49,509 bases of DNA, from assembly GCA_019873625.1 (NCBI GenBank), contig JAIOAW010000019.1, forward strand, positions 1 to 49,509, written 5' to 3'. The position numbers and the translations under genes are program-made. Positions 1-24,651 of the stretch are shown here, piece after piece. Below the pieces are notes generated by a model. It did not search any database, was not told the DNA's origin, and saw only the letters and a list, made by a program, of their open reading frames with translations. This DNA comes from Chloroflexota bacterium. GTDB lineage: Bacteria > Chloroflexota > Anaerolineae > UBA1429. Positions within the stretch are counted from its first letter, which is position 1. The number at the start of each line of letters is the position of its first letter.

Positions 1-5
1 AAGGG

Positions 6-505
6 GTGAGAAAAACCCGATGCCCTGAGGGGTATTAAGACAGACCCATTTACTAGCCAAGTCAAAATTGCCTTTTCCTCCAGTGAGAAAAACCCGATGC
101 CCTGAGGGGTATTAAGACGCCCATGGCCTCGAGGCTTTGAATGACCTCTGGGTTTGTGAGAAAAACCCGATGCCCTGAGGGGTATTAAGACAGATCTGCT
201 CTCCATCCGTCACAAGCAGATCGCCCTCATTCGGTGAGAAAAACCCGATGCCCTGAGGGGTATTAAGACTCTAGGACCGCGCGTGCCGCCCCCGCGTGCC
301 TTGCGCGAACCGTGAGAAAAACCCGATGCCCTGAGGGGTATTAAGACTCTCCTTTAAGACCATTAACCACATACTGAGGCCAAACCCCAAGAGTGAGAAA
401 AACCCGATGCCCTGAGGGGTATTAAGACGAGACTCGCCATTGAGTCTCTCTCTCACTATTTACGGCTTCTTTCCGTGAGAAAAACCCGATGCCCTGAGGG
501 GTATT
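6..505 (+). CRISPR. CRISPR array, leader-distal end (7 repeats, 6 spacers visible)
   Basis: Six identical 36-bp repeats start at 6, 83, 156, 234, 312 and 393; each begins GTGAGAAAAACCC and ends ATTAAGAC. A seventh at 475 matches for 31 bp (to 505) and then diverges. Spacers are 41, 37, 42, 42, 45 and 46 bp, and bases 1-5 belong to a further spacer, so the array continues to the left. The degenerate last repeat marks the leader-distal end, so the leader should lie left of the window and transcription should run rightward. The repeat can form a stem (GCCC/GGGT, extendable outward) with a TGAG loop, leaving ATTAAGAC as a plausible 8-nt 5' crRNA handle of the Cas6 kind. No cas gene is in the window, so the type is undetermined; long variable spacers are common in type I and III arrays of thermophiles. 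Confidence 0.97.
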
Positions 506-511
506 GTGGCG

Positions 512-542
512 CCCTCCCGTAGGTTCCCAACCTGCGGCAGGG
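512..542. repeat. Repeat element C, copy 1 (14-bp stem)
   Basis: Inverted repeat CCCTCCCGTAGGTT (512-525), loop CCC, AACCTGCGGCAGGG (529-542), with two stem mismatches. The same element occurs with a perfect stem at 24555-24589. It begins only 6 bp after the last recognisable CRISPR repeat base. Confidence 0.75.
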
Positions 543-550
543 TGTGTTAT

Positions 551-599
551 GGAGCGCGGGCCTCCCGGCCCGCGGCGCGAGGCAGGAGCCTCGCGCTCC
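551..599 (+). repeat. Repeat element A, copy 1 (49 bp)
   Basis: Element A starts GGAGCGCGGGCC and ends CTCGCGCTCC. It contains two adjacent small hairpins (GCGGGCC/GGCCCGC and GCGAGGC/GCCTCGC) and its ends are also complementary (GGAGCGC/GCGCTCC). Both copies in this stretch are preceded by TTATGGAGC. This copy carries a one-base length difference and a CAGGAG centre in the second hairpin. Confidence 0.85.
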
Positions 600-604
600 G
601 CCTT

Positions 605-628
605 GCCCCTCTCCCACCCCCATGGGAG
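605..628 (+). repeat. Repeat element B, truncated copy
   Basis: CCCTCTCCCACCCCCATGGGAG is the stem-loop of element B, cut before the GAGGG...GGTGAGGGCC tail and followed directly by the lead-in of the next element A. It looks like a unit interrupted by, or recombined with, the following unit. Confidence 0.7.
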
Positions 629-632
629 TTAT

Positions 633-757
633 GGAGCGCGGGCCTCCCGGCCCGCGTGCGAGGCTCTCGCCTCGCGCTCCTATTCTTCCCACTCCCACCC
701 CCATGGGAGAGGGCAGGGTGAGGGCCGAATGCCCGCCGCCCCTTGACATCCCCGCCC
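633..757 (+). repeat. Composite repeat A-B-P, copy 1 (~125 bp) upstream of the PAS gene
   Basis: Element A (633-680) is followed by element B (688-726, stem-loop around CACCCCCATG, then AGGGTGAGGGCC) and by a tail, P, at 731-757 that contains TTGACA at 743-748. A second copy at 1389-1513 has the same order, and its TTGACA lies at exactly the same offset (110 bp from the start of A). After the tail the two copies diverge into gene-specific sequence. Confidence 0.85.
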
Positions 758-773
758 ATTCGCGGCATATAAA
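743..773 (+). promoter_or_regulatory. Candidate promoter of the PAS gene
   Basis: TTGACA (743-748) followed after 17 bp by CATATA (766-771), or after 19 bp by TATAAA (768-773). The -35 box belongs to the composite repeat, the -10 to the unique sequence. It lies about 45 bp before the start codon at 817. Confidence 0.55.
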
Positions 774-816
774 CCTTGACGCAGCAGAACCCTTCACCCG
801 GCCCAAGGAGGTGCCT

Positions 817-1368
817 ATGGCAGCCCAAGAAGACCTAATCTACCGCCTCAACCGCCAGGATGAGATCGTCTTTGTCAACGAAGCGTGGGATCGCTTCGCC
901 CTCGCCAACGATGCCCCTGACGTTACGGCGGAACACGTCCTAGGCCGGCCCATCTGGGAGTTCATCACCGACCTTAGCACCCAACAAATCTATCGCGATC
1001 TCCTCGCGCGAGTGCGAGAAGGGCGTTCCGTGCGCTTCCCCTTCCGCTGCGACTCGCCCGCCGAGCGCCGCTTCCTGGAGATGCACATCCACCTTATGGA
1101 GGATGGGCAGATCGAATTCCGGACCCAAACGCTCTCCATCGAACGCCGGCCGGCCGTGCCTTTGCTCGCGCGCCAGGCCAGCCCCTCGCGCGACCTCCTG
1201 CGGATGTGCAGTTGGTGCAAGAAGGTATTCGCCGATGGGGAGTGGGTAGATATCGAGGAAGGGATCGAGCGCCTGCGCCTTTTTGAAGCGCCCGCCTTGC
1301 CGATGATCACCCATGGGATGTGCGACCACTGCGCCGTCAAGATGGCCGAGATCCTCGCCGCCATGTAG
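817..1368 (+). CDS. Small PAS-fold sensor-like protein with C-terminal Cys motif
   Basis: 183 aa, starting at ATG 817 behind AAGGAGG; longer in-frame starts would run through repeat DNA. Residues about 5-110 read as a PAS-type fold (opening with a LNRQDEIVFVNEAWDRFA stretch). The C-terminus carries CSWCKK (from ~131) and HGMCDHC (~166). This paired CxxC / HGxCxxC arrangement follows PAS domains in many bacterial sensor proteins and probably binds a metal or acts as a redox site. No kinase, HTH or other output domain is present, so the protein may act through a partner. Ligand and partner cannot be read from sequence. No signal peptide or membrane segment; cytoplasmic. Confidence 0.7.
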   Translation: MAAQEDLIYRLNRQDEIVFVNEAWDRFALANDAPDVTAEHVLGRPIWEFITDLSTQQIYRDLLARVREGRSVRFPFRCDSPAERRFLEMHIHLMEDGQIEFRTQTLSIERRPAVPLLARQASPSRDLLRMCSWCKKVFADGEWVDIEEGIERLRLFEAPALPMITHGMCDHCAVKMAEILAAM

Positions 1369-1388
1369 GCGCTGTACGGAGTGCGCGG

Positions 1389-1513
1389 GGAGCGCGGGCC
1401 TCCCGGCCCGCGTGCGAGGCTCTCGCCTCGCGCTCCGCCTTTCCCCTCTCCCACCCCCGTGGGAGAGGGCCGGGGTGAGGGCCTATACCCGCCGCCCCTT
1501 GACATCCCCGCCC
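1389..1513 (+). repeat. Composite repeat A-B-P, copy 2 (~125 bp) upstream of cobO
   Basis: Element A at 1389-1436, element B at 1443-1482 (CCCTCTCCCAC / GTGGGAGAGGG stem) and tail P to 1513 with TTGACA at 1499-1504. Sequence and spacing are nearly identical to 633-757. It lies between the PAS gene and cobO and could also act as a terminator-like structure for the PAS gene. Confidence 0.85.
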
Positions 1514-1526
1514 GTTTGGCGAAGAT
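1499..1526 (+). promoter_or_regulatory. Candidate promoter of cobO
   Basis: TTGACA (1499-1504), 16-bp spacer, GAAGAT (1521-1526). The -35 is supplied by the composite repeat, as for the PAS gene. The -10 is weak. Confidence 0.4.
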
Positions 1527-1546
1527 GGGGTGCGCACTCATAGATT

Positions 1547-1555
1547 GGGGGGGGG
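1547..1555 (+). repeat. G9 homopolymer in the cobO ribosome-binding region
   Basis: Nine consecutive G residues end 2 bp before the ATG at 1558 and take the place of a normal Shine-Dalgarno sequence. Length changes in such a tract could alter translation. Confidence 0.8.
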
Positions 1556-1557
1556 CT

Positions 1558-2088
1558 ATGGCTCACGAGACGCGCGGCCTCATCATCCTCTACATCGGCC
1601 GGGGCAAGGGGAAGACCTCTGCCGCCCTGGGCACCCTCTTGCGCGCCTGGGGGCATGGGCTGCGCGTGGGGGTCATCCAGTTCATCAAGGGCGCCGCATG
1701 GCGCTCTGGCGAGGCGCTCGCTGCCGAGAGGCTGGGCATCCCCTGGCGCATTGTGGGCGAGGGGTTCGTCTACGATCCGGTGCGCGACGAATCGGCCCGC
1801 CGTTCGGCCCTGGCGGGCTGGAAAATCGCCCAGGAGATGATCGCCAGCGGCGCCTTCGACCTCCTCGTGCTCGATGAGTTCACCTACCTCTTTTCCTTCG
1901 GCTGGCTGGAGGCGGCCGAGGCCCTCGCCTGGCTGGAGGCGCACCGGCCGCCGGCGCTCCATCTCGTCCTCACCGGGCAAGAAGCGCCGCCCGAGTTCCT
2001 CAAGGCCGCCGACCTCGTTACAGAGATGCAGGCCATCAAACACCCCTACGAGGCGGGCATCCCCGCCCAAGAGGGCATCGAGTTTTAG
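1558..2088 (+). CDS. cobO: Cob(I)yrinic acid a,c-diamide adenosyltransferase (CobA/CobO/BtuR type)
   Basis: 176 aa, the usual family length. The enzyme transfers the 5'-deoxyadenosyl group of ATP to cob(I)alamin or its precursor to make adenosylcobamide. Visible: N-terminal P-loop GRGKGKTS (residues ~14-21), VIQFIKG, VLDEFTY (Walker B-like), LTGQ, and the family C-terminal signature IKHPYEAGIPAQEGIEF. The start at ATG 1558 is chosen because the homology begins just after it. Upstream lies a repeat-borne promoter and a G9 tract instead of a clear Shine-Dalgarno. No other cobalamin gene and no cobalamin riboswitch is visible nearby, so it may serve salvage rather than full synthesis. The stop codon abuts a remnant of element A. 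Confidence 0.93.
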   Translation: MAHETRGLIILYIGRGKGKTSAALGTLLRAWGHGLRVGVIQFIKGAAWRSGEALAAERLGIPWRIVGEGFVYDPVRDESARRSALAGWKIAQEMIASGAFDLLVLDEFTYLFSFGWLEAAEALAWLEAHRPPALHLVLTGQEAPPEFLKAADLVTEMQAIKHPYEAGIPAQEGIEF

Positions 2089-2146
2089 CCTCGCGCTCCT
2101 CCTTTCCCCTCTCCCAGTTCGCTGGGAGAGGGCCAGGGTGAGGGCC
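2089..2146 (+). repeat. Partial element A plus element B after cobO
   Basis: CCTCGCGCTCCT (2089-2100) is the 3' end of element A. It is followed by element B (2106-2146) with stem CCCTCTCCCA / TGGGAGAGGG and tail CAGGGTGAGGGCC. The stem could also act as a transcription terminator for cobO. Confidence 0.75.
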
Positions 2147-2152
2147 AAATGT

Positions 2153-2174
2153 GGGGCGCGTTACAACGTGCCCC
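2153..2174. repeat. Short palindrome (element D)
   Basis: GGGGCGCGTT pairs with AACGTGCCCC across a 2-nt centre, with one mismatch, followed by TAC. It is embedded between element B and the ROK gene. A single copy is seen in this window. Confidence 0.45.
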
Positions 2175-2197
2175 TACGCATTGGCGGCCTTTTTTGG

Positions 2198-2203
2198 TAT
2201 CAT
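2198..2203 (+). promoter_or_regulatory. Extended -10 promoter of the ROK-SIS pair
   Basis: TGGTATCAT (2195-2203) gives an extended -10 (TGG plus TATCAT). No good -35 is seen at 17 bp. The start codon follows 31 bp downstream. Confidence 0.4.
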
Positions 2204-2234
2204 ACGCCCCAGACACCAGGGCTTGGAGGGGAGT

Positions 2235-3203
2235 ATGGCCGAGGGGCAACGCGTGGTAGTAGGGATGGATGTGGGCGCCACGAAGGTGCTGGCGGGCTAT
2301 GTGGATGAGGCGGGCCGGGTGCTTCGCCAGGCGCGCTCGCCGATGGATCGCTCCAACCAGGATGCCGCCCTTTGGAGCATCGAGGCCGCGCTGGAGGCCC
2401 TGATGAGCGCGCCCTGGGAGGGGCCTGCGCCCCTCGCCGTGGGGTTCGGCGTGGTGGGGCAGACGGATCCCGCCACGGCTACCTGGGTGCGGGCGATGAA
2501 CATCCCCATTCACACGAGCGTGGATATGACGGCTCGCTTCACGGCCCGCTACGGCTTGCCGGCCGCGGTGGATAACGACGTGCACGCCGCCACGCTTGCC
2601 GAACTCCGCTGGGGGGCGGGGCGCGGCGCGCGCGAGTTCATCTACCTCAACGTGGGCACGGGGGTGGCCGCTGGGCTGGTGTGTAACGGGCAACTCGTGC
2701 GCGGCGCGGCGAACTATGCCGGCGAATTGGGCCATATGGCCGTTGCGGGGGAGGATATCCTTTGCCCCTGCGGGCGCCGGGGGTGCCTCGAGCCGGTGGC
2801 CTCCGGCGGGGGGATGATTCAGCGGGCGCGCGACCTCCTGCCTACATATCCCGATTCGGCGCTGGGAAGGTTGCCCGAGGGGATGCCCCTCGATGCGCAC
2901 GCCATCTTTACCTATGCGGAGGCGGGCGATCCCCTGGCGCAGCGCTTGGCCTCGGAGGCCGTAGAGGCGCTGGGCAAGGCGCTCGTGAACCTCATCAACC
3001 TCCTCAACCCGGAGATCATCGTGGTGGGCGGCGGGGTCTTTGCCGATGGTTGGCTTTTGCCGCGCCTGCGCGCCGTGGTGGAGCGCGATGCCCTCTCTGG
3101 GGCGCTCCGCACCCTGCGGGGCATTCACCTTTCCACGCTCCAGCCGGACCTCGTGGGCTTGCTCGGCGCGGCCGTCTTGGCGTGGGACCGCATCGCATCC
3201 TAA
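2235..3203 (+). CDS. ROK-family sugar kinase
   Basis: 322 aa, ATG at 2235 behind GGAGGGGAG. ROK (repressor/ORF/kinase) fold, ATP-dependent phosphorylation of a hexose or amino sugar. Visible: N-terminal phosphate-binding DVGATK (residues 12-17), the VDNDVHAA catalytic-Asp segment, NVGTGVAAGLV, GELGHM, the zinc-site cluster CPCGRRGCLE, and a C-terminal EIIVVGGG adenosine loop. There is no HTH domain, so it is a kinase rather than a ROK repressor. The next gene, 18 bp downstream, is a SIS-domain protein, which suggests shared work on an amino sugar (for example GlcNAc kinase plus a sugar-phosphate isomerase/deaminase), but glucokinase activity is equally possible from sequence. Confidence 0.88.
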   Translation: MAEGQRVVVGMDVGATKVLAGYVDEAGRVLRQARSPMDRSNQDAALWSIEAALEALMSAPWEGPAPLAVGFGVVGQTDPATATWVRAMNIPIHTSVDMTARFTARYGLPAAVDNDVHAATLAELRWGAGRGAREFIYLNVGTGVAAGLVCNGQLVRGAANYAGELGHMAVAGEDILCPCGRRGCLEPVASGGGMIQRARDLLPTYPDSALGRLPEGMPLDAHAIFTYAEAGDPLAQRLASEAVEALGKALVNLINLLNPEIIVVGGGVFADGWLLPRLRAVVERDALSGALRTLRGIHLSTLQPDLVGLLGAAVLAWDRIAS

Positions 3204-10882: not shown

Positions 10883-11902
10883 ATGCAGGAGCAAATCTAT
10901 CCACTTACCTTTGAACCGGTGCTCCGAGATTACCTCTGGGGCGGCCGCAATCTCGAGAGGCTCTTCGGCAGGCGCTTGCCGCCGGGCATTACCGCCGAAA
11001 GTTGGGAGATTTCGGGCCACCCCTCTGCACCCACCCGCGTGGATTGGGGCTTTTGGCAGGGCCGCACCCTTCCGGAGGTGCTCACGGCCTTGGGCGAGGC
11101 GCTCGTAGGGGCGCGCTCGCGCCCTATGCTTCGTATGGGGCGGTTTCCGCTCCTGGTGAAACTGCTCGACGCGAACCACGATCTCTCCGTGCAAGTGCAC
11201 CCTTCGGATGATTACGCCCTGCGCCACGAAGGCGACCTGGGCAAGACGGAGGCTTGGTACATCCTCTATGCCGTGCCGGGGGCGCATTTGATTTACGGCT
11301 TGGCCGAGGGCGTCACGCGCGAGTCGTTCATCCAAGCCCTGCGGAATGGCACCTTAGAAAGCCAACTGCACCGCTTGGGCGTCAAAGAGGGAGATACCGT
11401 CTTTGTGCCGGCGGGCCTCGTGCACGCGTTGACGGCGGGCATCGTGGCCGCCGAAATCCAGCAGAATTCGGATGCGACCTACCGCGTGTACGATTGGGGA
11501 CGCGTCTCGACGAACGGCGAAACGCGCCCCTTGCATATCGAGAAGGCGCTCGATGTGATTGACTGGTCGCGCACCGCGCCGGGCAAGGAGGAGCCTGTTC
11601 TCCTCTCCCAAGGGGAGGGCATCCTCCATACGCGGCTGGTAGCCTGCGACAAGTTCGTGATGGAATGCCTTGACCTTGAGGCGGGGGCGGCCTTCCGGGG
11701 GGCCTGCACCGGTGAGACGTTCGAAATCTGGGGGTGCGTCTCGGGCGAGGCGCACCTCACGTGGGCTGGGGAACCCGTTTCGCTACCGACAGTGCGTTTT
11801 GTGCTCTTGCCTGCGGTTTTGGGCGAATACGCCGTGCAGGCGGCTACAGCGAGCCGCCTGCTGCGCGTTTACGTGGGTGCGGAAGGGTCTAATCAAAGAT
11901 AA
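10883..11902 (+). CDS. manA: Type I phosphomannose isomerase (ManA)
   Basis: 339 aa from ATG 10883 (GAGGTTTACGAG upstream; an in-frame TTG at 10862 is less likely). A cupin zinc enzyme interconverting mannose-6-phosphate and fructose-6-phosphate. Visible: LRDYLWGG, LLVKLLDANHDLSVQVHPSD with the QVH zinc ligands, GKTEAWYIL, the second His/Glu site HALTAGIVAAEIQQNSDATYRVYDWGR, and a C-terminal jelly-roll. Short 'class I' bacterial form. Its last 14 bp overlap the convergent alcohol dehydrogenase gene. Confidence 0.92.
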   Translation: MQEQIYPLTFEPVLRDYLWGGRNLERLFGRRLPPGITAESWEISGHPSAPTRVDWGFWQGRTLPEVLTALGEALVGARSRPMLRMGRFPLLVKLLDANHDLSVQVHPSDDYALRHEGDLGKTEAWYILYAVPGAHLIYGLAEGVTRESFIQALRNGTLESQLHRLGVKEGDTVFVPAGLVHALTAGIVAAEIQQNSDATYRVYDWGRVSTNGETRPLHIEKALDVIDWSRTAPGKEEPVLLSQGEGILHTRLVACDKFVMECLDLEAGAAFRGACTGETFEIWGCVSGEAHLTWAGEPVSLPTVRFVLLPAVLGEYAVQAATASRLLRVYVGAEGSNQR

Positions 11903-12989: not shown

Positions 12990-13241
12990 GGAGCGCGAGG
13001 CTCTCGCCTCGCACGCGGGCCGGGAGGCCTGCGCTCCATACATTCGGCCCTCACCCTGGCCCTCTCCCAGCAAACTGGGAGAGGGAAGATGGGAGCGCGA
13101 GGCTCCCGCCTCGCACGCGGGCCAGGAGGCCCGCGCTCCATACATTCGGCCCTCACCCTGGCCCTCTCCCAGCAAACTGGGAGAGGGAAGGTAGGAGCGC
13201 GAGGCTCCCGCCTCGCACGCGGGCCGGGAGGCCCGCGCTCC
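12990..13241 (-). repeat. Tandem cluster of elements A-B-A-B-A (reverse orientation)
   Basis: Elements A at 12990-13037, 13092-13139 and 13194-13241 (48 bp each) alternate with elements B at 13046-13085 and 13148-13187. The A-B period is exactly 102 bp between the three A starts. B here has the loop GCAAAC and stem CCCTCTCCCAG / CTGGGAGAGGG. The near identity of the two 102-bp units points to recent tandem duplication. Confidence 0.9.
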
Positions 13242-24477: not shown

Positions 24478-24525
24478 GGAGCGCGGGCCTCCCGGCCCGC
24501 GTGCGAGACGGGAGCCTCGCGCTCC
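24478..24525 (+). repeat. Element A plus truncated element B after the SIS gene
   Basis: A full 48-bp element A (GGAGCGC...GCGCTCC) with GGGAG in the second hairpin loop. It is followed by a degraded element B (24532-24550, CCCTCTCCCGCATAGGAGAG). Confidence 0.85.
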
Positions 24526-24554
24526 CATTTCCCTCTCCCGCATAGGAGAGAAAA

Positions 24555-24589
24555 AACCCTCCCGCAGGTTTTGAACCTGCGGGAGGGTT
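24555..24589. repeat. Element C, copy 2, perfect 16-bp stem
   Basis: AACCCTCCCGCAGGTT, loop TTG, AACCTGCGGGAGGGTT. The A-run just before it (24550-24556) gives a T-run after the stem on the minus strand, so it could terminate minus-strand transcription. Relative of 512-542. Confidence 0.85.
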
Positions 24590-24603
24590 AGCGCACTCAT
24601 CCC

Positions 24604-24651
24604 GGAGCGCGGGCCTCCCGGCCCGCGTGCGAGGCTCTCGCCTCGCGCTCC
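24604..24651 (+). repeat. Element A, last copy, upstream of polA
   Basis: 48-bp element A identical in layout to 1389-1436. It ends 10 bp before the -35 box of the polA promoter. Confidence 0.85.

Follow-up and report, generated by a model that had tools for sequence, protein, structure and literature searches.

Two neighbouring genes of a Chloroflexota bacterium (Anaerolineae; UBA1429) are each preceded by a copy of the same composite repeat, and both copies carry a TTGACA box in their tail. This raises the question whether a repeat brings its own -35 box to new genes, as a preliminary description of the locus had proposed, or whether the likeness is the product of plain segmental duplication, which the same description named as its alternative. 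The window analysed here is the whole stretch of 49,509 nucleotides that contains both copies; it is contig C19 of an assembly of 2.76 Mb in 47 contigs with an estimated completeness of 97.6%.

Two A-B-P units in the window

The repeat consists of an element A, an element B and a tail P, and the features of the window that bear on it are the following.

1-511, plus strand: CRISPR array with a 36-bp repeat, GTGAGAAAAACCCGATGCCCTGAGGGGTATTAAGAC, confined to this array and to C11:80-269
551-628, plus strand: partial unit A'-B' without P, in tandem with unit 1
633-680, plus strand: element A of unit 1, a 48-nt palindromic element of two hairpins closed by a GGAGC/GCTCC stem
688-726, plus strand: element B of unit 1, a hairpin CCC(T/A)CTCCCA...TGGGAGAGGG plus GGGTGAGGG
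727-757 (start 727/728), plus strand: tail P of unit 1, with TTGACA at 743-748 and TATAAA at 768-773, 19 nt further on
817-1368, plus strand: PAS-domain gene, 183 aa (PF08448, E 1.9e-5), with Shine-Dalgarno sequence AAGGAGG
1389-1436, plus strand: element A of unit 2
1444-1483, plus strand: element B of unit 2
1484-1513, plus strand: tail P of unit 2, with TTGACA at 1499-1504 and without a good -10 before cobO
1558-2088, plus strand: cobO/btuR, ATP:corrinoid adenosyltransferase, 176 aa (PF02572, E 2.4e-59)
12990-13241, minus strand: A-B-A-B-A array without P, ending 8 nt ahead of a different promoter (TTGACA-17-CATAAT) of a minus-strand dehydrogenase gene
24478-24651, plus strand: a pair of A elements lacking P; the DNA polymerase I gene has its promoter, again a different one (TTGCCC-17-TATAAT), immediately downstream of them

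We found that both units, at 633-757 and 1389-1513, contain A, B and P as described, and that TTGACA lies at the same offset, 110, in each. The description of the units as near-identical is too strong: the homology is real, but identity is 87% over 128 nt in an ungapped comparison (633-760 versus 1389-1516) and 90% by BLAST, a match that we judge to be far beyond chance. Element A does not differ between the two units at any of its 48 nt, and in unit 1 its RNA fold reaches -36.8 kcal/mol (z -4.15). About a dozen positions differ in B and in the linker between B and P, where most of the divergence lies, and P is 97-100% identical in the two units. The homology begins exactly at the A boundary and stops past CCCCGCCC[A/G]TT, which bears out the claim that the sequences diverge just after the tail. 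No known RNA family from Rfam was found above threshold in window 1-2300.

Distribution of A, B and P across the assembly

With the unit as a BLAST query, the whole assembly returned 70 matches (about 70 of them A-related), of which only three included P. Mapping the three parts separately gave 61 A copies in 38 clusters and three occurrences of P, two in the window and one at C11:11312-11341 (minus strand), so that 3 of the 38 A clusters contain P and 35 do not. This genome-wide search had been proposed as a check on the idea of a promoter-carrying repeat family, and its outcome speaks against that idea: since P is absent from most A clusters, it is not a standard part of the repeat, and a promoter-donating family is refuted. 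A scan of the genome for CCGCCCCTTGACA with up to two mismatches found 118 sites versus 102 for a reversed-pattern control; P-like 13-mers are therefore not clearly enriched, and there is no clear dispersed P motif. Many A elements coincide with assembly breaks and several A clusters stand at contig ends, so that further A-B-P copies could be missing from these counts.

Element A is a dispersed, palindromic, REP-like intergenic repeat. Its core 24-mer matches 67 times in this genome and elsewhere in the 298-genome class set only once, with two mismatches; a 30-mer of A has no exact match in genome contigs of other organisms, and in a 60-genome set of relatives no other genome contains the A-B-P unit. 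The loop of the second hairpin of A occurs in forms resembling reverse complements (TCTC/GAGA, TCCC/GGGA, TCCT/AGGA), as if the hairpin flips. Scattered near A clusters are also copies of another hairpin repeat, CCCTCCCGCAGGTTCAAAACCTGCGGGAGGG and its variants, at window 517-545 and at L100, L104, L109 and L128.

Gene context was taken from extracted regions with a home-made gene caller, which outside the window relied on a simple hexamer model with the window as training sequence. None of the 38 A clusters lies inside a predicted gene. Where both neighbours are known (n = 28), 12 clusters have tandem, 9 divergent and 7 convergent neighbours; with a quarter of them between convergent genes, A clusters do not consistently lie before gene starts, a further ground on which we rejected the promoter-donating family. 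All three A-B-P copies, in turn, are in sense orientation and each precedes a gene. B can face either way with respect to A.

In front of genes, many of the A/B clusters stop 10-30 nt short of a good sigma-70-like promoter; the two P-less arrays listed above are examples, and the sequence of these promoters differs from gene to gene. When 37 element-to-start leaders were compared with one another, a promoter sequence was common to the three A-B-P leaders only; the few remaining matches were to a different hairpin repeat or short. Thus a -35 right after the repeat is common, and a shared -35 is not. Repeats so often placed would fit a reading in which they are inert and crowd promoters, that is, PAS and cobO each had a TTGACA of their own and A-B was inserted upstream. 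However, P of units 1 and 2 is 94-100% alike over about 30 nt, far above what two independent promoters would share, and we consider this reading very unlikely.

A truncated segmental duplicate before a CRISPR operon

The third A-B-P unit, at C11:11312-11435 (minus strand), has a P 100% identical to that of unit 2 and is part of a longer match. The segment C11:11208-11495 (minus strand) corresponds to window 491-550 plus 628-861, with 225 of 234 positions identical in the longer piece, and runs from the end of the array through A-B-P, the -10-like box and the Shine-Dalgarno sequence to codon 15 of the PAS gene; window 551-628, the partial unit A'-B', is missing from it. Because the homology starts inside a CRISPR repeat and ends inside the PAS gene, this segment is a truncated segmental duplicate, and the alternative of plain segmental duplication is thereby shown directly. 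Element A is identical at 48 of 48 positions across the three A-B-P units and most other A copies differ, which indicates that A-B-P most likely moved as a block.

Immediately downstream of the duplicate lies a type III-A CRISPR operon. On C11 the PAS-derived frame ends at 28 aa. The next gene starts about 113 nt past the ATG of this frame, and its product is an NE0113 protein of the CARF type with an HTH; the same strand then continues with cas10 (Csm1), csm2, csm3, csm4, a gene for a RAMP, two ORFs without assignment, cas6, cas1, cas2 and an array, the repeat of which is that of window 1-511 and is found nowhere else in the assembly. In the window array the last repeat (475-511) is degenerate and represents the trailer end. 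Most likely a single CRISPR locus lies between direct copies of the segment made up of array end, A-B-P and PAS start, which would make C11 and C19, two separate contigs of the assembly, neighbours.

Window 1-5 reads AAGGG, as does the end of the C11 CRISPR leader (L119, about 265-275, minus strand), a sign that C11 and C19 may represent alternative or adjoining stretches of a single array. Together, C11:1-11500 and window 1-860 comprise a complete-looking type III-A locus with apparent flanks of about 290-bp direct repeats, between which homologous recombination might delete or amplify the CRISPR locus. C11 also contains a perfect TTGACA-N17-TATAAT with an extended -10 at 11662-11690 (plus strand), upstream of a gene for a large repeat-rich protein (C11:12091-15408).

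The three copies differ in a mosaic fashion: the linker CTATACCC is common to C11 and unit 2, and the C11 flanks match unit 1. Gene conversion between A-B copies already present before PAS and cobO, with P dragged along, would produce such a mosaic and would also account for units 1 and 2 having a 100% identical A but a different B and linker. Yet private changes in unit 1 explain the mosaic equally well, and past P the two loci share no sequence in which the far end of a conversion event could be anchored; we regard gene conversion as very unlikely.

In one form of the original proposal, A-B-P would be a non-autonomous repeat that spreads its own -35 to new genes, a mobile promoter element. 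The placement of A-B-P in sense orientation before three unrelated genes speaks for it, as does the homology of units 1 and 2 that opens exactly at the A boundary. As regards function, the proposal holds in part: the copies precede genes in sense orientation, and the C11 copy has the full stretch from promoter to start codon. Against a mobile element stand the rarity of P among the A clusters, the seven convergent clusters, the membership of one of the three P copies in a longer duplicate that includes PAS coding sequence, the variable orientation of B and a cobO copy without a convincing -10. Furthermore, the genome has no gene for an IS200/REP-type (Y1) transposase: Y1_Tnp (PF01797, the cognate RAYT) gave 0 matches at the estimated completeness of 97.6%, and five control genomes were positive. 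Mobilisation as a REP by a RAYT is rejected on this ground, and a mobile promoter element is, in our view, unlikely.

Starting from the homology, the copy number of P, the truncation on C11 and the gene contexts, all of which are read directly from the assembly, we think it likely that A-B-P is a chance composite, and that a segment around the PAS promoter, beside intergenic repeats, was copied by ordinary recombination or duplication. Dispersed A and B would happen to adjoin the PAS promoter region, and a segment with A-B and the first part of that promoter would have been copied. A longer copy, from the array end to 15 PAS codons, would have been placed before the CARF-cas10-csm operon and probably supplied it with a captured promoter, and a shorter copy, ending after P, would have been placed before cobO; the dispersed A-B copies may have helped recombination. 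The PAS locus appears to be the source of the C11 copy, since the window copy has a complete CRISPR repeat on one side and a complete PAS gene on the other. Between PAS and cobO, the copying may have gone in either direction. The cobO upstream regions of 11 relatives contain no TTGACA in the 200 nt ahead of the matched region, but they are too diverged to decide; homologues of PAS at 48-51% have no related upstream sequence.

Promoter quality and known systems

We asked how well the copied segments would serve as promoters. Exact TTGACA-N15-20-TATAAT pairs number 40 in this genome versus 0 in the control, and classical promoters are, to judge from sequence, in use here. Their spacers are 16 (n = 20), 17 (11), 18 (6), 15 (2) and 19 nt (1), so that 37 of the 40 fall within 16-18. 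In the PAS and C11 (csm) copies the best -10 partner is TATAAA with 5/6 matches at a 19-nt spacer, and this spacing counts against the duplication of a PAS promoter that we favour; before cobO the best partner is GAAGAT with 3/6 matches at 16 nt. The claim that each gene supplies its own -10 therefore applies loosely to PAS and poorly to cobO. None of the shuffled sequences reached the promoter score of PAS and 0.7% reached that of cobO, which rests on TTGACA itself. A stricter scan of window 500-2300, with spacers of 16-18, found no promoter.

From TTGACA to the Shine-Dalgarno sequence, unit 1 and the C11 unit differ at 0 of 71 positions versus 11 of 223 elsewhere, which is suggestive only (Fisher p 0.07), and purifying selection on the promoter was rejected as not significant. 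We infer that the copies are transcribed. Before the CRISPR operon, the C11 copy probably has all that a captured promoter would need. At cobO the copy ends before any -10 and the -35 part alone is shared, so the idea that it supplied this gene with a working promoter has weak support.

Among known systems, the closest kind appears to be promoter capture or a low-copy 'putative mobile promoter'. Putative mobile promoters and promoter propagation were reportedly described by Matus-Garcia et al. in 2012 and van Passel et al. in 2014, as cited in PMC8049555 and PMC11111574. As in those cases, near-identical upstream sequence with likely promoter parts stands before non-homologous genes of one genome, here PAS, cobO and the CARF-cas10 operon; unlike them, there are only three copies, and one of these is plainly a segmental duplicate that has been truncated. 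The capture of a promoter through DNA duplication or deletion is established (PMC11111574). The C11 copy resembles it in joining promoter, leader and truncated first codons to another transcription unit, but here it is seen in anatomy only.

Element A resembles REP/BIME/REPIN sequences in being short, palindromic, intergenic, present in many copies and often paired or clustered. It differs in lacking a RAYT partner, in ending in GGAG rather than GTAG or CGTC, and in often lying between divergent genes (9/28), whereas REPs lie mostly between unidirectional or convergent ORFs (PMC3733652). Correia repeat enclosed elements of Neisseria are small repeats able to generate a promoter at an end (PMC2649163); there the Correia element itself makes the promoter, whereas most A clusters here have no P. 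The present case fits mobile promoters and promoter capture in pattern and is not a Correia member. In hybrid promoters, the outward -35 of an insertion sequence is combined with a -10 of the target. The proposed pairing of a -35 from mobile DNA with a target -10 follows that scheme, but no insertion sequence or transposase is present at the units and cobO offers no good -10.

It would be rather surprising if the PAS sensor, the B12 enzyme CobO and the type III-A CRISPR operon formed a small regulon under one promoter copied next to recombinogenic repeats. The locus would serve as a worked example of a promoter copied to new genes, an immune operon included, without a dedicated mobile element. 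It also suggests that a repeat adjoining a promoter can mimic a promoter-carrying repeat when one window alone is read.
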